DNA from: a virus
DNA length: 39,995 bases
Direction: 5' to 3' (one strand)
Virus record (IMG/VR): IMGVR_UViG_3300031951_000436
Span: 1-39,995 of that record
Part shown: positions 1,273 to 14,075 of the stretch, one piece after another
How the letters are laid out: each line of letters opens with the position of its first letter
How positions within the stretch are numbered: the first letter of the stretch is position 1
The notes under the pieces: generated by a model
Databases searched by the model: none
Seen by the model: only the letters and a program-made list of their open reading frames with translations
Told to the model about the DNA's origin: nothing
Made by a program: the position numbers and the translations under genes

Positions 1273-1665
1273 ATGCCGATTACGTTTGCCCCTATCCGTG
1301 TTGCCCGGCGTGGCAACAACACCGACCTGACGGTTCATCTCAGGAAGTATTCCAGCGGCACCATGTCCCTGGAACTGGCCCTCTCCGCTGTTGCCCAGGA
1401 GCGGGTCCGGTACATCGACGGCGACCGTGTGGTCGCCCACTACGACGAGTCCAACAAGTCGTGGAGCCTGGAGCGGATCAACTCCGACCGGGCCAGTGAT
1501 GGGTACAAGGTGACCGTCCGTCAACTGGCCAATGGTGCCAGCAACGCCGTGGTTCGCCTCGGCTGCACCAGGGAACAGGCGGCGACGGTTCTGAGCGACC
1601 GGGAGGCCGGACGCTATGAGTTCCTGGAGGTGGCCGGAAACAAGGCCACGTTCGTGGAAGCCTGA
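1273..1665 (+). CDS. Hypothetical protein
   Basis: This 130-residue soluble protein is not recognised. It is rich in Arg, Val and charged residues and looks like an alpha/beta domain with no clear active-site motif. It is flanked by a strong terminator upstream (1209-1246) and a very stable hairpin downstream (1671-1707), so it may form a monocistronic unit; such isolated small genes in phages are often abundant early proteins. The ATG at 1273 sits after ACGGAGTGCG, a plausible ribosome-binding site. No promoter with good -10 and -35 boxes is evident in the 26 bases between terminator and start, so its promoter may overlap the terminator. Confidence 0.65.
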   Translation: MPITFAPIRVARRGNNTDLTVHLRKYSSGTMSLELALSAVAQERVRYIDGDRVVAHYDESNKSWSLERINSDRASDGYKVTVRQLANGASNAVVRLGCTREQAATVLSDREAGRYEFLEVAGNKATFVEA

Positions 1666-1670
1666 GGCCA

Positions 1671-1707
1671 GCCTCGCCCGGCATGGTGACCCCGTGCCGG
1701 GCGAGGC
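1671..1707 (+). promoter_or_regulatory. Very stable intergenic hairpin
   Basis: A perfect 13-bp inverted repeat (1671-1683 with 1695-1707) encloses an 11-base loop, 6 bases after the preceding stop codon. There is no T-run after it, so it is not a textbook intrinsic terminator. It may be a weak terminator, an mRNA 3'-end stabiliser or a processing site ahead of the LexA-like gene. Confidence 0.7.
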
Positions 1708-1729
1708 ACCCCATCACAAGGAACACCCC

Positions 1730-1948
1730 ATGAGCAACACGCTCAAGCCACTGGAAAAGAAACTGCTACGCCACATCGCAGCCCATGTCAGGAAGCACGG
1801 GTACCAGCCGTCCTACCGGGAGATGGCCAACGAGTGGGGCTACAGCAGCATCGGATACATCGCCGCTCTCATCAACAAGATGGAAAAGAAGGGGCTCGTG
1901 CGTTGCATTGGACCGCGAGCCGTTGCCTTCGACCACAACTCTTACTGA
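1730..1948 (+). CDS. LexA-type winged-helix DNA-binding protein without peptidase domain
   Basis: The 72 residues match the layout of the N-terminal DNA-binding domain of LexA: an opening helix (LEKKLLRHIAAHVRKHG), the YQPSYREMANEWGYSS turn equivalent to the LexA PTRAEIAQRLGFRS segment, a recognition helix and a short beta wing (GLVRCIGPRAVAF). The S24 autoprotease domain of true LexA and CI-type repressors is absent, so it cannot self-cleave. The start at ATG 1730 has an AAGGAA site 8 bases upstream. A plausible role is repressor or antirepressor competing at SOS-type operators. It sits directly before another small helix-turn-helix gene and is probably co-transcribed with it. Confidence 0.75.
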   Translation: MSNTLKPLEKKLLRHIAAHVRKHGYQPSYREMANEWGYSSIGYIAALINKMEKKGLVRCIGPRAVAFDHNSY

Positions 1949-1959
1949 AAGGAGACCAC

Positions 1960-2112
1960 ATGACTCGTTCCATCAAAGACAAGGACCCCATCCGCGTTCG
2001 CAACTTCATGGTCTGGGAGTTGCACTGCAAGGGGTACAGCCAGCAGTTCATCTCACGGATCTTCGGCATTACATCGGCCCGTGTATGCCAGATCCTGGGG
2101 GAGATGCAGTGA
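1960..2112 (+). CDS. Small helix-turn-helix protein
   Basis: A 50-residue protein whose C-terminal half (KGYSQQFISRIFGITSARVC) fits a resolvase or sigma-region-4 type helix-turn-helix: a helix, a Gly-containing turn and a recognition helix. It has an excellent GAAAGGAGA ribosome-binding site before the ATG at 1960. Its stop codon overlaps the GTG of the next gene (GTGA), suggesting coupled translation. It probably binds DNA or RNA polymerase as a small early regulator; the target is unknown. Confidence 0.6.
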   Translation: MTRSIKDKDPIRVRNFMVWELHCKGYSQQFISRIFGITSARVCQILGEMQ

Positions 2113-2243
2113 GACTACCCACCTGGGACAGGATTCTTACGGCCCTGGTCCTGATCCGCATGGGTCAGGAACTCGGGACCAACAGCCAGTTGGCACGGGC
2201 TGTCCATGCCGTGCTGAGTATTGCCATCAACATCTTCAAGTAA
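2109..2243 (+). CDS. Small hypothetical protein
   Basis: This 44-residue protein begins at a GTG that overlaps the previous stop in the GTGA arrangement common in this genome, with GGGGAG as ribosome-binding site. It contains two amphipathic or hydrophobic helices (about residues 7-19 and 29-42), so it could be a small membrane-associated peptide. No family is recognised. Evidence for coding is the tight spacing and the 11-base gap to the next ribosome-binding-site-led gene. Confidence 0.4.
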   Translation: MRLPTWDRILTALVLIRMGQELGTNSQLARAVHAVLSIAINIFK

Positions 2244-2254
2244 GGAAACAAGCG

Positions 2255-2581
2255 ATGATCGCATCAAGCCCCGAAGTACTAGACCGTTGCACACACATCG
2301 AACACCAGACCGTATATCACGACATGATCTGCAGGATGGGAGACCACAAGATTCGCGTCCGGGTGAAGCGGAATGTCTACGACTTCCAGTCTTCAGTCAC
2401 TGCGGAACACTGGGGGATTGGTGGGTGGAACGAAATGTTCCGCCACCCCATCCATGTCTATCCGCCCCTGGCCAACGTCAATCATAAAAGCACCACAGCA
2501 GCGGAGGCTCTTGATGCCATGGCTGCTGTCGAGAAGACGGTCCTGGAGTTGGCCGAGCAGTTCCTGGAGTACCGCGAATGA
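2255..2581 (+). CDS. Hypothetical protein
   Basis: A 108-residue soluble protein of unknown function. The ATG at 2255 is preceded by GTAAGGAAAC. It has Cys and His residues in the N-terminal third (C13, H15, H18, H23, C27) that could bind a metal, followed by a beta-rich middle and a C-terminal helix (AALDAMAAVEKTVLELAEQF-like). The stop overlaps the next gene's ATG (ATGA). No motif assigns a reaction. Confidence 0.6.
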   Translation: MIASSPEVLDRCTHIEHQTVYHDMICRMGDHKIRVRVKRNVYDFQSSVTAEHWGIGGWNEMFRHPIHVYPPLANVNHKSTTAAEALDAMAAVEKTVLELAEQFLEYRE

Positions 2582-2940
2582 AGAAGCCAGCCTGGACCGA
2601 GAAGGTTGAGAGAGGGATGTGGCTGATCGTTGCACGGTCAGCCACTGTTTTTTCCGCAGAGAACGGCGGGCCCGGCATGTCCAAGGATGAGATGGATTCC
2701 ATCCTGGCCGCGTCCCGCTACTGCGATTACCACTGGGCCGAGCATGGCCAGTACTGGAAGGAGCATCGAGAACATGCAGACATTCCTACCGTTGCCCGAC
2801 ATGCACGAAAGCGTAAGGGTCCTGGACGACCGGAGGCTGGGGAAGCAGAGGGTCGAGGCCCTGCAGATACTCAACACGCTGGCGGGCAGGTCTCAGGGTT
2901 GGCGGAACCATCCGGCAGTCAAGATGTGGAGGGGGCATGA
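2578..2940 (+). CDS. Hypothetical protein with a long 3' overlap into the next gene
   Basis: A 120-residue frame starts at ATG 2578, overlapping the previous stop. The first 65 residues look like a genuine protein (Trp/Tyr-rich, alpha-helical). From about base 2774 the frame runs out of phase under the glycosylase-like gene, and that tail is rich in Gly, Arg and Pro, as expected of a shadow frame. The frame has no earlier stop, so the tail is translated if this start is used. Function unknown. Confidence 0.5.
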   Translation: MKKPAWTEKVERGMWLIVARSATVFSAENGGPGMSKDEMDSILAASRYCDYHWAEHGQYWKEHREHADIPTVARHARKRKGPGRPEAGEAEGRGPADTQHAGGQVSGLAEPSGSQDVEGA

Positions 2941-3190
2941 GCATGCACTGCGTACCTATCACAACCTGTGCATCGCAGAGTGGATTCACCGTGGGTTTCG
3001 TAACAACATGCAACTCATGGAAGAACTTGCAGGCAGTCCGCTGCCCGACTGGTTCGGCATACCGGAGTTCCATGCAAGCCACAGGTCAAACCTTCTCCGC
3101 AAAGACCCCGGCCACTACGGCTGGTTCGGGTGGAGCGAGCCAGCAGACCTGCCTTACTATTGGCCAACGGAAGCGAGGGCAGAAACATGA
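2774..3190 (+). CDS. Pyrimidine-dimer DNA glycosylase-like protein
   Basis: The 138 residues match the small pyrimidine-dimer DNA glycosylase family found in phages and bacteria. Visible signatures are the N-terminal MQTFLPLPD, the VLDDRRLGKQRVEA segment, GWRNHPAVKMWRG, the FHASHRSNLLRKDP block and the C-terminal DLPYYWP. Such enzymes cut the glycosidic bond at UV photodimers to start base-excision repair, which suits phages of sunlit water. The start at ATG 2774 is chosen because homologues begin MQTF. Its stop overlaps the next ATG (ATGA). The upstream frame at 2578 overlaps its first third. Substrate specificity is inferred from family. Confidence 0.85.
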   Translation: MQTFLPLPDMHESVRVLDDRRLGKQRVEALQILNTLAGRSQGWRNHPAVKMWRGHEHALRTYHNLCIAEWIHRGFRNNMQLMEELAGSPLPDWFGIPEFHASHRSNLLRKDPGHYGWFGWSEPADLPYYWPTEARAET

Positions 3191-3513
3191 AGGGTGACAT
3201 CAACCTGTACGACGTTCGGGTGACGCATCCGTTCGAGACCTTCGGGTACCGGGGCCGCAATCAGGAGAACGGCAAGCGAAACACTTGCGTTCACAGACTG
3301 ATCGTGGCTGCCCCGTCGAGGGATTCGGCCGAGGCAATCTCCCGATTCCATGTCTACAAGAAGGTGGGCAAGCACGTTGACGATGTTCTTGTCTGCGAGA
3401 TCCCCGAGAAGGTACACGACCTGGGGATGTTCGCCTTCAAGAACAAGGACATGCAGTTCTTCAAGGCTCGCTGCGATGCCGATGCAGTAAAGGAGGAAAC
3501 CGAATGCTCGTAG
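3187..3513 (+). CDS. Hypothetical protein
   Basis: A 108-residue soluble protein with alternating beta strands and helices. It carries a middle segment about residues 32-75 (HRLIVAAPSRDSAEAISRFH) typical of small beta-alpha-beta domains. The ATG at 3187 overlaps the preceding stop. Its own stop lies 10 bases inside the serine recombinase gene, so the two are translationally coupled. That coupling hints at, but does not show, a role with the recombinase, such as a directionality factor. Confidence 0.55.
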   Translation: MKGDINLYDVRVTHPFETFGYRGRNQENGKRNTCVHRLIVAAPSRDSAEAISRFHVYKKVGKHVDDVLVCEIPEKVHDLGMFAFKNKDMQFFKARCDADAVKEETECS

Positions 3514-4313
3514 CCTATGGGTACTGTCGAGCCAGCACCGCCGGTCAGTCCCTGACCTTCGATGCCCAGAAGACCGCCATCACCCGGCACTTCAAGGAGA
3601 AACTGGAGCCGGAGGGGTGGACGTTCGGTGGGTTCTTCGAGGACAAGGCGACCTCGGGTGCCAAGCCCCTGACCGAAAGGGAGCAGGGGCGGGCCATGTG
3701 GGTGGCAGTGCAGCCCGGTGACTGTGTGATCTGGTCGAAACTGGACCGGGCGTTCCGCTCAGTCCGGGACGGGGCCAACACCCTGCAGTTGTTCAAGGAG
3801 AAGGGCGTGGCGATTCACTCGCTCGACCTTGCCCTGGACACCAGCACGGCACTGGGCTCCTTCGTCATGCACCTGCTGGTCCTGCTTGCGGAACTGGAGC
3901 GGGAGTGGATCCGTGGTCGAACCCGGGATGCACTCATGGCCAGGGCGGAGAAGGGCCTGCCAATCACCGTCAACATCCCGCCGGGATGGAGGAAGGTGAA
4001 GGCTGGACCCAACCCCGCCAAGCCTGGCAAGTACATCTACCGCTATGAGGTAGACCAGAAGGAGCGGTCCTTACTGGATGACATCGCAGCCAGGAGGCAG
4101 GCCGGTGAGAGTTTCGAGAAGATCAGCAACGACCTGTTCTTCAAGAAGGTCTTTCGGTACAACGCCCCGAGCAAGACGAAGTGGAACAGGAAGCACGGGC
4201 AAGCCGGGCTCTACTCCACTTGGTTCCTGACTCTGGCGATGAAGTGCCGGGACCAGGGGTACCCGCTCCTGACCAGGAAGAAACTGGATCAGGACCCGGC
4301 GTTGTCCTCGTAG
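3504..4313 (+). CDS. Serine recombinase (resolvase/invertase family)
   Basis: This 269-residue protein has an N-terminal resolvase catalytic domain: YGYCRAST near the start with Arg9 and nucleophile Ser11, the WSKLDRAFRS segment around residues 77-86, and a long helix containing ELEREWIRGRTRDAL near residues 130-145. A recombinase-type DNA-binding region follows (GLPITVNIPPGWRKV, then an ERSLLDDIAARRQAGESFEKI helix), but the protein lacks the zinc ribbon and coiled coil of large serine integrases. Ser-recombinases cut both strands and rotate to invert, delete or integrate DNA. The start has an AAGGAGG site. It is the last plus-strand gene and overlaps the convergent sigma-like gene by 25 bp. 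The phage also has a tyrosine integrase, so this may act in inversion or dimer resolution. Confidence 0.9.
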   Translation: MLVAYGYCRASTAGQSLTFDAQKTAITRHFKEKLEPEGWTFGGFFEDKATSGAKPLTEREQGRAMWVAVQPGDCVIWSKLDRAFRSVRDGANTLQLFKEKGVAIHSLDLALDTSTALGSFVMHLLVLLAELEREWIRGRTRDALMARAEKGLPITVNIPPGWRKVKAGPNPAKPGKYIYRYEVDQKERSLLDDIAARRQAGESFEKISNDLFFKKVFRYNAPSKTKWNRKHGQAGLYSTWFLTLAMKCRDQGYPLLTRKKLDQDPALSS

Positions 4314-4807
4314 CAGGTTCGCAGTTGGTCGAGGTAGGACCGCAGACGTTTCTTTGCAGTCCGCCGATGGACCCCATGCTGCCTGCCGAGGACCGAGAAG
4401 TTGGAGCCGTCGAAGACGAACGCCTCGATCCAAGAGCGAACGTCCTCTGGCATATCCTGCAGAGCGGGCAGGGCAGCCTCCATGTCCGGGAAGTCCGGCT
4501 TGGATCGCTGCTCTGCCTGCTCCAGGGTAATGCGGTACACGCTATGGCTCTGGCTCTTCACTTCTTTCTGGATCTCCTTCAGGAATGCGTTGCGGATGGC
4601 CACTGAAAAGTATGCACTGATGCCGCACTTCTCAGGCTTGTACGTCCTGGCTGCTTTGCAGCATGCCAACTGAGCCGCCCCCTCCAGGTCGCATGCTGCG
4701 GCCACCTCTCTCAGGCAGGGGAAGTTCCTCCAGAACGCAGCCATGCACACCGGTATAAGTGCTATGGCCTTTTCCGCTATGGCTTGCTGCTCTGGTGTCA
4801 GGCTCAT
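4289..4807 (-). CDS. Sigma-70-family-like RNA polymerase sigma factor
   Basis: In 172 residues there is a sigma region 2-like stretch (about 40-85: DLEGAAQLACCKAARTYKPE, then ISAYFSVAIRNAFLKEIQKE), matching the DLVQEG...AA..F.P..G..F..Y....IR..IL pattern. A region 4-like helix-turn-helix follows (about 117-165: LGRQHGVHRRTAKKRLRSYL). The layout fits an ECF or SigF-like minimal factor or a phage sigma that redirects host polymerase to phage promoters. It ends the leftward operon and starts with ATG overlapping the previous stop. The four GACATAAAC sites elsewhere in the window are candidate targets, by inference. Confidence 0.8.
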   Translation of the reverse strand: MSLTPEQQAIAEKAIALIPVCMAAFWRNFPCLREVAAACDLEGAAQLACCKAARTYKPEKCGISAYFSVAIRNAFLKEIQKEVKSQSHSVYRITLEQAEQRSKPDFPDMEAALPALQDMPEDVRSWIEAFVFDGSNFSVLGRQHGVHRRTAKKRLRSYLDQLRTCYEDNAGS

Positions 4808-6373: not shown

Positions 6374-7252
6374 TCACACCTCTGGCGGGCTGTCGTGGAA
6401 GGTGGCGACGATGGTGTTGTCTCGGCTGGAGCGGAGACGCATCCAGTAGCCGGGATTGGTGGTCGGCCGAGGCCCCCGGCCCTTCTCGATGTGCCATCCA
6501 TCGAGCGGCCCGTACTCGTCCTTGTAGGTGGAGACCCTAACGAGAGTGGTCTCGTACACCTTGCGGATGTCTTGGGCGGTGATCTTCTCCCGGGCCATCA
6601 CCCCAAGGTTCTTGGTGTGGATGTGGCCGGACACGATGCAGTCGGCATCGACGTACTGCGACACCCGAGACATGGCGATGGTGCCCTGTGTTACAGGGGA
6701 GTCACCGCCGGACCCGTGGTGGTAGTACATCCTGTAGTTCGCACATAACGCTTTGCCCTTGTAGTTGGCACCGTACAGGATCCAGCCGTTGTACCCACCC
6801 TTGACACAGTGGGATCCCTCCAGCCGCAGCCGCTCCACCAGCCGAGATGTCAGGCAGGTCTCGTGCCTGCCGTAGATGGCCGTCTCGTGGTTTCCCACGG
6901 AGATCATGCCCATCACGCTGGCATAGGGCTTCAGGAAATCAGCGGCGGTCTCTACCAGGGAGTCCAGGTAACTGCCGGTCTGATGCTCGGGGCGGATGGA
7001 GTCCTTCGATGACCGCTTGTCGTACTTCCCCTGCATCGCACAGAAGTGGTCACCGGCCGAGATGACCATGGCCCCGATGCTCTTGGCGGTTTTGAGGTCC
7101 CGCTCTATCAGGTCGAGCCTGCATTTCGGATTGTCCCAGTGCCAGTCCGCAGTGATGAGGACCCACATCTCTGGCTGCCTGCCGCCAGAGAACTCGACCT
7201 TGTGAACGCCATGCTCCAGGGAGCGAATCGACCAGGAATTGCTTTCCGGCAC
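6374..7252 (-). CDS. Calcineurin-like metallophosphoesterase
   Basis: The 292-residue protein shows the binuclear-metal motifs in order: D-x-H (TADWHWD, residues 35-40), GDH (67-69), GNHE (120-123) and GHIH (209-212), with YHHG near 177-180. The family hydrolyses phosphoesters; phage members are often nucleases of SbcD/Mre11 type or phosphatases. Translation starts at a GTG (7252) with AAGGAGG about 8 bases upstream. A copy of GACATAAAC lies about 45 bases upstream, so this gene probably heads a transcript running left to the sigma-like gene. The exact substrate is not visible. Confidence 0.9.
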   Translation of the reverse strand: MPESNSWSIRSLEHGVHKVEFSGGRQPEMWVLITADWHWDNPKCRLDLIERDLKTAKSIGAMVISAGDHFCAMQGKYDKRSSKDSIRPEHQTGSYLDSLVETAADFLKPYASVMGMISVGNHETAIYGRHETCLTSRLVERLRLEGSHCVKGGYNGWILYGANYKGKALCANYRMYYHHGSGGDSPVTQGTIAMSRVSQYVDADCIVSGHIHTKNLGVMAREKITAQDIRKVYETTLVRVSTYKDEYGPLDGWHIEKGRGPRPTTNPGYWMRLRSSRDNTIVATFHDSPPEV

Positions 7253-9527: not shown

Positions 9528-11093
9528 CTATGAAGCCAGGAACTTGTTCTTGACATGGCGGATGCGGATCTCCTTCTCGAAAGCAGCCTTCCACATGGGC
9601 GTCAGGCGACCCTCTCGGAGCATCCACTCCAGGTAACTCGTTGGCACGGCCGGGTTGGAGAGCGGCTGACCCTTGTATTTCCCGAACGGGAACCTGTACT
9701 CCCGACGCTTGGCATGCTTGCGGTCGGGCCTGCCGAATAGGTCGCGGTCCTCGGAGTCGAACGTGACGCCGACGACAAGTGCCTGCCGCCGCTTCCGCTC
9801 GGCCTCCCGCTCCAGCCGGGCAGCCTCGGCCTCGGCCTTCAACTCGGCCTCCACGGCGGCGTCGATCTCCTCCATAGAGACCTCCTCGCCCTCGGTCTTT
9901 TCCTTGACCTTGGTCTTCAACTTCTTGTTCTGGGAGGACAGAACGTCTATGGCCGAGCAGATCTGGTGGCAGCGGGTGGAGTCGGTCAGGTCGTGGATGA
10001 TGAAGTGCGGCTTCTTGCTGCCAGCAATCACAGCCTTCCTGGCCTCGGCCGTCTCGCACTCGTCAATGTTGCAGTCCCATGTCCGGGTGGCACGGCCGAT
10101 CATCTGGGTGTATTTGTTCAGGGCCTTCGTAGGTTTGGCTATGAAGACCTCAGATACAGGTGGATGGTCCCAGCCGGTGGTCAGGATGCCGACGTTGATG
10201 ACCAGTTCCCGCTCGCCGGAGGTGAACTGCTTGAGTTCCCGGGCGTACTCAGCGTCGCTCTGGTAGGAGTGGACGAGACTGCACGGGATGCCGTGCCTGT
10301 CGAGCAGCATGTCCCGCATCAGGCAGGCTTGCTTGACAGAGTGGGCGAACACGATCCCCTGCCGCCCGGCGACATGCTCTTTGGTGATAAGGCCCGCGAT
10401 GTCATGCAGAACCTGCTCGCCACGCAGGATCCGGTCCAGTTCCTCGGCGTGAAAGTCAGACCCCGACTTCTTCGCAGCCTTGGACAGGTTGATGCTTTTG
10501 ACGTAGTGCGTCTTGGCCTTTGGTGGGACCAGCCATCCGTCCTCAATGGCCGACCTCAGGGAGTAGCAGTAGGAGAGTTTCTCGTAGTGCCCCATCAGGC
10601 TTTGCCGGTCGGCCCGATAGGCGGTAGCAGTGCAGCCAAGAACCCTGGCACCGGCTGCGACAAACTCATTGAGGATGTCGCGGGCCTGCACGGTGAACAT
10701 CCAGTGGGCCTCGTCCACCACCACCAGATCGACCTTGCCCAGGAACTTGCGGTACCGGCCGTTCCGCATCAGCGTTTGCCAGGACGCCACCACAAACTCG
10801 GTTTCAGGGATGGCCGACAGGTCCGCCTGCTCAACGTCTGGCTGGCACTTCCTCAGGGACTGTATGGACCTGACCGTCTGTCCTATGAGTTCAATCAGAG
10901 GAACAATCACAAGGGTGCGAGCCCCCTCCCGGGGCAGCAGGACGAAGGTTCGCGTCTTGCCGCACCCGGTCGGGAGTTCCATCAGCAGGCTCTTGAGTCC
11001 GCTCCGCCAATCGGCACGGAGCATCTCAATGGCCCGCTTCTGATACGGCCGCAGCATGTGGTCAAACAGCGGCAGGGCTTCGCACTTGGGCAT
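9528..11093 (-). CDS. SF2 DEAH-box helicase with C-terminal DUF3820-like domain
   Basis: The 521-residue protein is a superfamily 2 helicase: Walker A PTGCGKT (41-47), motif II DEAH (127-130), motif III TATAYR (155-160) and motif VI QMIGRATR (330-337). Like the UvsW/RadD-type phage helicases it should remodel branched DNA or unwind at origins. After a charged coiled coil (about 388-438) there is a compact C-terminal domain with FPFGKYKGQPL...SYLEWML (about 468-492), the hallmark of DUF3820. It sits with annealing and exonuclease genes, indicating a recombination-dependent replication role. The fusion to DUF3820 is less usual. Confidence 0.9.
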   Translation of the reverse strand: MPKCEALPLFDHMLRPYQKRAIEMLRADWRSGLKSLLMELPTGCGKTRTFVLLPREGARTLVIVPLIELIGQTVRSIQSLRKCQPDVEQADLSAIPETEFVVASWQTLMRNGRYRKFLGKVDLVVVDEAHWMFTVQARDILNEFVAAGARVLGCTATAYRADRQSLMGHYEKLSYCYSLRSAIEDGWLVPPKAKTHYVKSINLSKAAKKSGSDFHAEELDRILRGEQVLHDIAGLITKEHVAGRQGIVFAHSVKQACLMRDMLLDRHGIPCSLVHSYQSDAEYARELKQFTSGERELVINVGILTTGWDHPPVSEVFIAKPTKALNKYTQMIGRATRTWDCNIDECETAEARKAVIAGSKKPHFIIHDLTDSTRCHQICSAIDVLSSQNKKLKTKVKEKTEGEEVSMEEIDAAVEAELKAEAEAARLEREAERKRRQALVVGVTFDSEDRDLFGRPDRKHAKRREYRFPFGKYKGQPLSNPAVPTSYLEWMLREGRLTPMWKAAFEKEIRIRHVKNKFLAS

Positions 11094-11410: not shown

Positions 11411-11582
11411 TGGTATTCCCTCCTTGGAAAAAGGCATCGGTCTGATCGTTCAGGGCGGCACGAGCCAGCCTGAGTTCTGAAAACAACAGCGGGATCGCCC
11501 GCATCAACAGAGACGGGAGTTGGTCCATCGTTGAGCGAACGATGTAGTTCTCCAGTTCATCAACCTGCTCGTCGGTCAGCAT
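11103..11582 (-). CDS. Hypothetical protein, 3' part overlapping the HTH gene
   Basis: ATG 11582 with GGAGGAG upstream opens a 159-residue frame. The first 45-50 residues (LTDEQVDELENYIVRSTMDQ onward) look genuine: amphipathic helices suited to a small partner protein. From about 11410 the frame runs beneath the HTH gene and becomes Gly/Ser/Pro-rich, as expected of a shadow. The first 23 bp overlap the ERF gene. I trust the start but not a function for the C-terminal two thirds. Confidence 0.45.
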   Translation of the reverse strand: MLTDEQVDELENYIVRSTMDQLPSLLMRAIPLLFSELRLARAALNDQTDAFFQGGNTNDLPRQGSFDGDGSPDSAGVHDRGHVGTPAAHEALPSVPEADRGDAAEAGSPESPQHTEVSGPKPRRNRRKGSRNPPSVDGGGSPEAVGGEVGSVLPIQPRG

Positions 11583-12186
11583 TGGGCTCCTCCTTGGGGC
11601 CATAGGCATCGAACAGCCGCTTGGCATCAGCCGCCCTGATCTCACCCTTGGCGGCGAGAGTGGCGACATGAGCGAGGATGGGCTTCCGCTCCTCGTCGGT
11701 CTTCAGGCTCTGGAGTTTCTTCTCCGCCCTGTTGACCAACTCCACCCACTTCATGGCGTTTGCAGAGGTGTGGTTCTGCTCTGCCTGTTCACCGTCGTCG
11801 TCATCGTCTGCAGCGATGCCCACGATGGCGGACAGTGCGATCCGCCTGGCGTAGGTGACGTTGGCTGCCAGTTGCTGCGGCGTGAGGTTCGCCTTGATGG
11901 GGATGCACGACCGGATCCACTGGCCGCTGGTGTGACCCAGCGTCGTGGCTACCGCTGTCTCCCCCTCCTGACCGTAGGGCACCACCGACTGGATGATGCA
12001 CAGGCCGTTCTTGGCCAGGGCCCCACGGGTTACGTCCCGCACCGTGGCGAGGTCCGCGTACATCCCGTAGTGGGACTTCTTGGTCCTCGGGGCATTGGTC
12101 ATTTCGCCCTGTGCTTTGGCCAGGGCTTCGTACAGTTTTGCACACTCTGGAGACTGCTCTCCGTACATCACGGGCATACGATCCAT
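11560..12186 (-). CDS. erf: ERF-family single-strand annealing protein
   Basis: The 208-residue protein has the ERF signature: an N-terminal helix (KLYEALAKAQGEM), SHYGMYADLATVRDVTRGAL, a GLCIIQSV strand, a GHTSGQWIRSC segment and the QQLAANVTYARRIALSAIVG helix followed by an Asp-rich stretch. ERF proteins anneal complementary single strands in phage recombination and genome circularisation. ATG 12186 has GGAGGAAT upstream and follows the nuclease stop by one base, so nuclease and annealing protein form the classic two-component pair, as in Red or RecET systems. Confidence 0.85.
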   Translation of the reverse strand: MDRMPVMYGEQSPECAKLYEALAKAQGEMTNAPRTKKSHYGMYADLATVRDVTRGALAKNGLCIIQSVVPYGQEGETAVATTLGHTSGQWIRSCIPIKANLTPQQLAANVTYARRIALSAIVGIAADDDDDGEQAEQNHTSANAMKWVELVNRAEKKLQSLKTDEERKPILAHVATLAAKGEIRAADAKRLFDAYGPKEEPNADRRAG

Positions 12187-12187
12187 T

Positions 12188-13198
12188 TCATTCCTCCATG
12201 CAATACTCAGGCACAAACAACTCCGTCACCTGACCTGAGTCTTCAGGCAACCAATGGTCGAACATGATTCGGGCATGTAGGTCGTTCAGGGCTGCCTGAC
12301 GCCTACGCCTCGCCTTGTCGAGAAGCCTCTGCGGCAGAGTTACCGCATGGCACAGATAGGGCGGCACTGTGCTGGCAATCAGGAACACGAACTGTGTCCT
12401 GGTCTGACCAGAAGCCGCTACGCCGTCGAGATAGTGGACGGCCTGTATGTCGTAGCCCCACTTCAGAACGCTCTTGTAGAACGTCGGAAGTGGATTGGGA
12501 TCGCTGGTCGTCTTGATGTCCCACACCACATCAGGCGTCAGGGCATCAGGTCGGCACTTGAGTTGCAGCCCAGTGCCAGGATCTATCCAGCGGATCGAGA
12601 CTTCCCGGGAAGTTGTCTGCTGGCTCAGTTGCCCGAAGATCGGGTTGGCCTTGATGGCCTCGAACTGACGCCGGTACTCGTCTGCCTCACTCTGCTTCAG
12701 CAGGATGGCGTCAGCGGCCTGCGTCGAGACGAACGCCTCGGTCTTCTTGGTACGCCGACCGGAGGTGCCCAGAGCGTCGTCTGGAATGATGACGACACGA
12801 GCCCACCAGGCGTCGTCACCCTGCTCCGCCCACTCGTGTACATGCGTCCCCTTTTTTAGGGAGGCATCCCTTGCGTAGGGTTGAAGGGTTCGGGCGAGAT
12901 GCCGCGCGCAGAAAAACTGCGGCCCCTGGGACATCAGGTCCCAGAGTTGGCTCTTGCTCCACCACTCCGCGTCGGAGTGGTAGGCGTCAATCGTTTCACT
13001 GGAGAGGTAAGTAGCGGCGGCCGGACTTGAACCGGCGACACCCGGCTTATGAAGCCGGTGGCCCATAAGGCCCGCACCGACGGCACATGTGTCGGCAGGA
13101 TCTGCGTAATCAGAACCCGCCAAAATATGGGCCGCCAGGTGGGGGTTTTGGTCCATCCCCGCGTCGTTACTCTCTCCCAGTCCGGGAGAGGTAGTCAT
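12188..13198 (-). CDS. RecE/lambda-exonuclease-like PD-(D/E)XK nuclease
   Basis: The domain starts near residue 68 (AYHSDAEWWSKSQLWDLMSQ) and shows H120-H121, CRPD (D218), DIKT (D227, K229) and QAVHYLDG (Q252-Y256), the active-site layout of the PDDEXK_1/RecE-type exonucleases. These digest one strand of duplex ends to feed the ERF annealing protein. ATG 13198 has an AAGGGAC site and is 1 bp from the divergent integrase start. Residues 45-63 are encoded by the tRNA-like attachment site and include VAGSSPAAAT, a peptide typical of translated tRNA T-arms. Integration at that site would split this gene's 5' end. Confidence 0.85.
   Translation of the reverse strand: MTTSPGLGESNDAGMDQNPHLAAHILAGSDYADPADTCAVGAGLMGHRLHKPGVAGSSPAAATYLSSETIDAYHSDAEWWSKSQLWDLMSQGPQFFCARHLARTLQPYARDASLKKGTHVHEWAEQGDDAWWARVVIIPDDALGTSGRRTKKTEAFVSTQAADAILLKQSEADEYRRQFEAIKANPIFGQLSQQTTSREVSIRWIDPGTGLQLKCRPDALTPDVVWDIKTTSDPNPLPTFYKSVLKWGYDIQAVHYLDGVAASGQTRTQFVFLIASTVPPYLCHAVTLPQRLLDKARRRRQAALNDLHARIMFDHWLPEDSGQVTELFVPEYCMEE
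13012..13081 (-). other. attP: tRNA-Met(CAT)-like sequence, probable attP core
   Basis: The minus strand has a perfect anticodon arm (CCGGC-TTCATAA-GCCGG, anticodon CAT, 13042-13058), a 5-base variable loop and a perfect T arm (GCCGG-TTCAAGT-CCGGC, 13020-13036). The 5' half is poor: a 5-base D loop without the GG pair, no T at position 8, and an acceptor stem with a mismatch and wobbles. This pattern, a conserved 3' tRNA half next to an integrase gene, is the usual form of a phage attP that targets a host tRNA gene. I therefore call it an attachment site rather than a working tRNA. Confidence 0.75.
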
Positions 13199-13199
13199 C

Positions 13200-14075
13200 G
13201 TGTTGTCCCTTGCGCAACAGTACTGCGACGAAAGAGAGGTGTCCGCTGATTACCGGCAAGCCCTGGCTCGGGTTGCACGGTCAATGGAAGCGGCTGGCAT
13301 CACTCCGTCGATGCTTTCAGACTCCGTAATCAACCGCTGGCTGGCGTCGTTGAACCAGTCGGCAACGACTCGCAGCAACTACCGGCGGATGGCGTTGACC
13401 CTGTGGCGGTACGCCCTCGACCTGCGGTTGACCGATCATCCTATAGGCCGAGTTATGCGAGTCAAGGCGAACACCAAGACACCTATCGCCTGGTCTGCGG
13501 ACGAGATGCGTCGCCTCATTTTGGCCGCGAGAAACATGCGGGATACGCTGCGGTCAGGGTGCCCAGCCAACCTGTTTTTCGAGGCGTTCCTGAGGACCGG
13601 CTACGAGACCGGCCTGCGGTTCAGCGACCTCCTGCGGCTGCGTGTCGAGCAACTGCGGGACCACCGGCTGTTCGTGGTTCAGAACAAGACGGGGCAGCCC
13701 CTGGCGAAGGTGCTGAGTGCCGAGTGCGTGTCGTGTCTCAGGGACCTAAGTGTCCTAGGGGACGGTAAGACATTTTTTCTCTGGGCCCTGCACCACCGCT
13801 GGTTGAGAGTGCATTTCAGGCGGCTCTGTCACGCGGCCGGGGTGACCGGCACCCCTAAATGGTTGCGTCGGACGGGTGCCACGGCGGTCGAGGCGGTCAG
13901 CCCAGGGTCGGCTGGCAGGTTCCTCGGGCACCTCTCGCCCGGCCTGGCTGCCCGCTTCTATGTGGACCCCACGCTGCTGCCGAACGCCTGCCCGACACCG
14001 CCGCCGATCAGTACAGCAGCGACGACTCCTGCTCCTTCTTGCGGTCCCGCACCCGCTGCTTCTGCTCACGGTTGA
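13200..14075 (+). CDS. int: Tyrosine recombinase (phage integrase)
   Basis: The 291-residue protein has an N-terminal SAM-like core-binding domain (about 1-90) and a catalytic domain with R140 (TGLRFSDLLRLR), K163, the KWLRRTGAT box (K220/R223), LGH (H244) and nucleophile Y254 (FYVDP). It should integrate and excise phage DNA at the tRNA-like site 120 bp to its left. The GTG at 13200 (or TTG at 13203) has GGGAGAGG upstream. The start is 1 bp from the divergent nuclease start, leaving no room for a separate promoter. Its last 68 bp overlap the convergent 1204-residue gene, and its Pro/Ala-rich tail lies there. Confidence 0.9.
   Translation: MLSLAQQYCDEREVSADYRQALARVARSMEAAGITPSMLSDSVINRWLASLNQSATTRSNYRRMALTLWRYALDLRLTDHPIGRVMRVKANTKTPIAWSADEMRRLILAARNMRDTLRSGCPANLFFEAFLRTGYETGLRFSDLLRLRVEQLRDHRLFVVQNKTGQPLAKVLSAECVSCLRDLSVLGDGKTFFLWALHHRWLRVHFRRLCHAAGVTGTPKWLRRTGATAVEAVSPGSAGRFLGHLSPGLAARFYVDPTLLPNACPTPPPISTAATTPAPSCGPAPAASAHG

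Follow-up and report, generated by a model that had tools for sequence, protein, structure and literature searches.

What becomes of a phage gene when the site through which the phage integrates lies within it? The question is posed by a 39,995-bp IMG/VR virus record (hereafter the window, meaning the whole stretch of DNA analyzed), in which the 3' half of a tRNA gene falls within the beginning of a gene encoding a recombination nuclease. An earlier note on this sequence had taken the tRNA remnant for an attP core next to a tyrosine integrase, and had proposed that integration would part the nuclease domain from its start codon. The features that bear on the question are these:

13011..13060, minus strand: probable attP core, recognized by its identity with the 3' half of host tRNA-Met, from the anticodon arm through the variable loop and T arm to the 3' acceptor strand
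13061..13087, minus strand: degenerate 5' half of the tRNA-like element, with no match to the host D arm
13047..13053, minus strand: anticodon loop TTCATAA, with anticodon CAT at 13049-13051 and perfect inverted repeat CCGGC/GCCGG as flanks, read from the sequence
12188..13198, minus strand: predicted RecE-like PD-(D/E)XK nuclease, 336 codons (PF12684, DUF3799, 2.6e-16; phrog_412, exonuclease VIII, 3.3e-43; RecE fold)
13016..13198, minus strand: disordered N-terminal leader of the nuclease, residues 1-61 by pLDDT, containing the core-encoded peptide
13200..14075, plus strand: tyrosine integrase, GTG start, divergent from the nuclease (PF00589, 8.4e-07; phrog_1, 2e-17)
11560..12216, minus strand: ERF ssDNA-annealing protein, the next gene past the nuclease (PF04404, 9.3e-19; phrog_2324)
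9528..11093, minus strand: helicase gene, further down the same strand (profile matches)
13172..13190, no strand assigned: inverted repeat CTCTCCC-AGTCC-GGGAGAG just past the nuclease ATG, where most relatives also have a stem-loop

A tRNA fragment within a nuclease gene

ARAGORN calls a tRNA-Met(CAT) at 13011-13087 on the minus strand, with perfect anticodon and T arms but degeneracy in the D arm and in the acceptor strand of the 5' side. The element scores 29.6 bits against Rfam RF00005 (cut-off 29), compared with 71-72 bits for the intact tRNA-Met genes of two hosts and 30-33 bits for the same site in three sister phages. The earlier note had described an intact 3' half and a degenerate 5' half, and this is borne out: 49-50 nt at 13011-13060 are identical to the 3' half of a planctomycete host tRNA-Met, a block slightly larger than the 13012-13058 that the note had given. 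It had also allowed that a good score as a full tRNA would speak against an attP. Nominally the ARAGORN call is such a result, and it is what favors a functional tRNA-Met gene encoded by the phage. The covariance score argues against functionality strongly enough to rule that gene out, and in four sister phages the site yields no ARAGORN call, so that we give the idea almost no credence. Single-strand RNA folding of the site is uninformative (z only -0.98).

Five viral contigs have an exact copy of a 43-mer from the core. One of the five duplicates this window; in the other four the flanks are only about 71-84% identical, and the match is therefore not chance. The seven base pairs at 13047..13053 are, from their sequence, the likely crossover region.

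The core lies 140 bp outside the start of the integrase gene, in which R140, K163, R223, H244, and Y254 are invariant among 13 relatives, and within the open reading frame of the nuclease. In the direction in which the nuclease is read, its start codon (ATG, 13196-13198) comes before the core, and LHKPGVAGSSPAAAT is encoded at the core, in frame with the nuclease body, just as had been proposed. Three lines of evidence predict a RecE-like PDDEXK nuclease: the profile matches, the predicted model, which matches E. coli RecE (3h4r, E 1.5e-11), and an invariant acidic/lysine motif (D218, D227, and K229). In that model, residues 1-51 and 53-59 have pLDDT below 50 and the first strand begins at residue 62. 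The core encodes residues ~48-63, in a leader that is poorly conserved. The best relatives of the nuclease in the named phage collection are about 30% identical or less, and in the same collection no relatives of the integrase were found.

The host tRNA gene

The exact phage core was scanned as a 34-mer in one genome per species, 84,980 species in all. It was found in 36 genome contigs, all titled planctomycetes except one titled 'bacterium', and in 34 of the 36 ARAGORN finds an intact tRNA-Met, as the earlier note had suggested looking for; hosts with variant cores are beyond the reach of these counts, since the scan used the exact core. The typical host gene reads GGCGGCGTAGCTCAGTTGGTTAGAGCACCGGC-TTCATAAGCCGGGTGTCGCCGGTTCAAGTCCGGC-CGCCGCTA. 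It is therefore likely, as part of the explanation that we prefer as a whole, that 13011-13060 is the attP core of a temperate Planctomycetota phage integrating into tRNA-Met by means of the adjacent tyrosine integrase.

One end of such an integrated element is found in locus L011 (from G003), one of the two contigs among the 36 where no intact tRNA-Met is called. It has a core with a degenerate 5' half and, in the same geometry, an adjacent integrase 37% identical to that of the window. Its 3' flank follows intact tRNA-Met genes in other genomes (e.g., 94% over 242 bp and 95% over 128 bp). Judged by its sequence, L011 is the attR of a related integrase at the same tRNA. At this locus (1391-3666 on a planctomycete MAG contig), two related integrases in tandem accompany the displaced tRNA-Met core and the host flank. 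Around 3296 of L014 there is a second tRNA-Met 3' half without a 5' half, beside which no related integrase was found; it is possibly the attR of another element.

No intact tRNA-Met of the exact host sequence, the sign of an attL, occurs in the viral contigs. Among 35 genomes with the exact core, nuclease matches are weak only and integrase matches include the attR element of L011. No lysogen of this phage itself was found in the genomes searched.

Conservation across phage lineages

Related loci were gathered by three scans, based on the integrase, the nuclease, and the nuclease domain, and by our count comprise 21 distinct lineages. The nuclease scan made use of the peptide pattern RLHKPGVA and hence favors loci that carry the core; the other two scans are independent of the pattern. 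In all 21 lineages the nuclease is read through the core without a stop from an in-frame start, either an ATG that precedes the core by 8-53 codons or, in L072, a GTG upstream of it. An SD-like motif accompanies 19 of 20 starts upstream of the core, as against 24% of 792 control ATGs.

The core is read in more than one frame. In 17 lineages (frame A) it encodes LHKPGVAGSSPAAA or a near variant, and in 4 (frame B) it encodes GFISRxSxVQVxPxL or a near variant. None of the 21 uses the third frame, in which there is a TAA. Four changes are required to account for frame B on the nuclease-domain tree, and well-supported branches impose at least three of these; L074 and L075 are sisters that differ in frame (A and B). 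That the reading-through has been kept across at least three changes of frame argues for selection.

Between the core and the domain, none of the 21 lineages has an ATG or GTG. The stretch contains 2 start-type codons in about 242 codons, both TTG, where about 10 would be expected at the rate of 4.3% seen in the domain, a deficit to be taken as descriptive only, because the lineages are related.

The core goes with the integrase. In the domain scan an integrase neighbors the nuclease at 13 loci, and every one of them has the core in frame, L152 being counted by its sequence rather than by the arm-finding rule, as its anticodon stem is imperfect. Homologs from the same scan with no integrase nearby lack the core and start near the domain. 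L148, for example, 54% identical and sister of L149, has neither integrase nearby nor core and starts directly at the domain. The exception is L143, where the core is present and the contig stops before an integrase would be reached. A locus that breaks the rule is L228 (G839:C68, 144-2139), where a divergent integrase and nuclease are adjacent without a tRNA 3' half. Between them lies a piece resembling a tRNA 5' half (AGCTAGCTCAGTTGGTTAG), followed by a strong SD-ATG and the start of the nuclease.

A lysogen junction

An in silico junction of the host tRNA's 5' sequence with each of 20 phages predicts that a TAG in the 5' half of the tRNA would end the nuclease frame, and from this stop to the core no ATG, GTG, or TTG occurs. 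Samples of genomes at the level of phylum, order, and family were searched for lysogens, and one was found, in the planctomycete MAG G580. On its contig C271, an intact tRNA-Met (71 bits) is followed directly, and in frame, by a nuclease body. On the host side of the tRNA are genes for a molybdopterin oxidoreductase and MutS; beyond the nuclease body the contig continues with an ERF-like gene and others, at least one of which, a sigma-like ORF where the contig stops, resembles by eye 4289-4807 of the window. The prophage is a relative of this phage, its nuclease being sister to that of L071, and it was missed by the exact 34-mer scan because its core has a variant T stem.

In G580 a TAG at 7072-7074 precedes a nuclease frame of 309 codons. 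The first 169 of these include no ATG, GTG, or TTG, and the first start-type codon is the GTG at 6564, codon 170. The in-frame TAG and the startless 169 codons therefore mean that integration removes the start codon of the nuclease and its ribosome site. The earlier note had anticipated prophage junctions at the tRNA-Met and the separation of the domain from its start, and this relative has both. It had gone on to suppose that lysogeny would switch the gene's 5' end: the start is indeed lost, but no alternative 5' end takes its place, only a startless frame after a TAG, and the gene is likely off.

Contig C271 stops inside the prophage, and neither an attR nor an integrase was found in the genome bin. 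The attL, from the G580 relative, and the attR, from the related integrase of L011, thus come from different elements, with one junction each. The nucleases of G618 were considered as attL and ruled out, since they start adjacent to the domain, each from a start of its own, and lack a neighboring tRNA. Directly past the restored tRNA-Met of the lysogen, within the linker of the nuclease frame (L204, around 6960-7010), there is a GC-rich inverted repeat, possibly a processing or termination signal.

A proposed switch, and alternatives to it

According to the model, the nuclease of the free phage would be translated from the ATG and ribosome site on the integrase side of the core. Crossover within the core would restore an intact host tRNA-Met and join it to the nuclease body, which would then have an in-frame TAG upstream and no start codon. 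The start codon, the ribosome site, and presumably the promoter would move to the other end of the prophage, beside the integrase, until excision restored the gene. The nuclease is thus probably off in the lysogen and on again after excision, as regards silencing in cells, and if the promoter lies where we suppose, the downstream ERF and helicase genes probably lose it on integration as well. The anatomy of the locus, its conservation, and the lysogen junction of one relative can be read directly; loss of the protein in vivo and selection for the switch are what we infer from them, and we consider the explanation as a whole probable. A broader claim strikes us as evenly balanced: that a clade of planctomycete phages shares an integration-controlled OFF switch, with attP set within the first gene of a recombination/replication operon, the start codon on one side and the gene body on the other, so that integration shuts down the nuclease and excision restores it, possibly with the rest of the operon, and little or no repressor is needed at that promoter.

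Perhaps, though, the arrangement reflects nothing more than compaction. Genes packed back to back might leave the core in a disposable, disordered leader, and the start would be lost without regulatory role. The interlocked CATG starts of nine relatives fit this idea, as does a nuclease leader that is disordered and poorly conserved. Distant relatives with separated start codons nevertheless retain the core in the nuclease, the open frame survives at least three switches between A and B, fewer start-type codons than expected follow the core, and homologs without an integrase start near the domain. We regard compaction alone as unlikely, while the most serious of the alternatives. Much less room is left for a lysogen that still makes the nuclease by initiating at a non-standard codon, ATT for instance, on transcripts begun at the tRNA-Met promoter. 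The frame in the lysogen is intact for its 309 codons and there are ATT codons at the end of the tRNA and just before the domain, but the 169 codons free of ATG, GTG, and TTG speak against it, and the 3' end of tRNA transcripts is normally processed. We consider it improbable. Still more so is a nuclease that truly starts after the core, the core being 5' untranslated sequence. The peptide encoded by the tRNA has no predicted structure, and the TTG codons past the core in L060 and L069 might serve, yet such a start is ruled out by the missing ATG and GTG in the 21 lineages together with the SD-like motifs at the upstream starts, and the stop-containing frame of the core is never used.

Some observations count against the explanation that we prefer, namely loss of the nuclease start on integration. 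L228 does so, with its adjacent integrase and nuclease and no tRNA 3' half. In three frame-B lineages the core includes a GTG at which translation could begin, and this could count against start loss. The window also has a LexA-type gene (1616-1948, plus strand; HTH/DNA-binding domain, PF01726), whose product is a possible conventional repressor and, if it represses in that way, may count against the explanation too.

Relation to known systems

In the integration-dependent immunity of mycobacteriophage BPs, attP lies inside the repressor gene, and integration removes the 3' end, which encodes a degradation tag, to give active protein (PMC4557955); prophages related to this type have been described (PMC9934374). 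The present locus is similar in that the attP core is inside a phage ORF and integration changes the gene product. It differs in that the gene encodes a RecE-fold nuclease rather than a repressor and in that integration takes away the start codon along with the rest of the 5' end, probably leaving no product. By analogy, the logic would resemble integration-dependent immunity without its defining features, the repressor gene and the 3' truncation. The 'suicidal' integrases of the SSV type, described as exclusively archaeal, have the recombination site in their own gene (PMC8371274). There too a coding region is split by integration, but here the integrase stays whole, the core being outside its gene, and the divergent nuclease is split. 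Ordinary attP sites of tRNA-targeting tyrosine integrases have a core made of a tRNA 3' half, with the tRNA restored at one junction and the integrase adjacent (PMC10865867). This one shares the 3'-half core and the adjacent integrase, but it is protein-coding as well, an open frame in a recombination gene. The nuclease resembles RecE/exonuclease VIII-type enzymes (DUF3799, PDDEXK) in profile, predicted fold, and conserved motif and departs from them in an N-terminal leader encoded partly by a tRNA fragment.

Text searches of the open-access literature, which were not exhaustive, gave no description of a nuclease that loses its 5' end by integration. In the precedents found, the gene controlled by integration encodes a repressor (BPs) or an integrase (SSV); here it encodes a recombination nuclease, in a clade of environmental phages, and the 3' half of a host tRNA has been retained as protein-coding sequence in two reading frames. 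Removal of a start codon offers a testable alternative way to keep a prophage quiet. If the model is true, recombination would be a lifestyle decision and a gene switch at once. Such switches might be sought by LHKPGVAGSSPAAA or GFISRxSxVQVxPxL at the N terminus of a nuclease.

Other features of the locus

The starts of the nuclease and the integrase are one base apart in the window (CAT-C-GTG, 13196-13202), and the ribosome site of each gene is within the coding sequence of the other. In nine relatives (L054, L055, L057, L060, L061, L062, L063, L064, and L069), a CATG palindrome interlocks the two starts. The stem-loop after the nuclease ATG keeps its position in most relatives while its arm sequences differ from phage to phage, and in L071, L074, and L075 the tRNA anticodon arm itself folds near that position. 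In the window the integrase SD is within the 3' arm of the stem-loop (13172-13190). A hairpin that traps the integrase SD would fit the phages with interlocked starts but not the distant ones, and we do not claim it. Within the integrase gene a promoter-like site (13465-13438, minus strand), a consensus match only, is directed at the nuclease. Elsewhere in the window there is a second recombinase, of the serine resolvase type (3504-4313, plus strand; PF00239).
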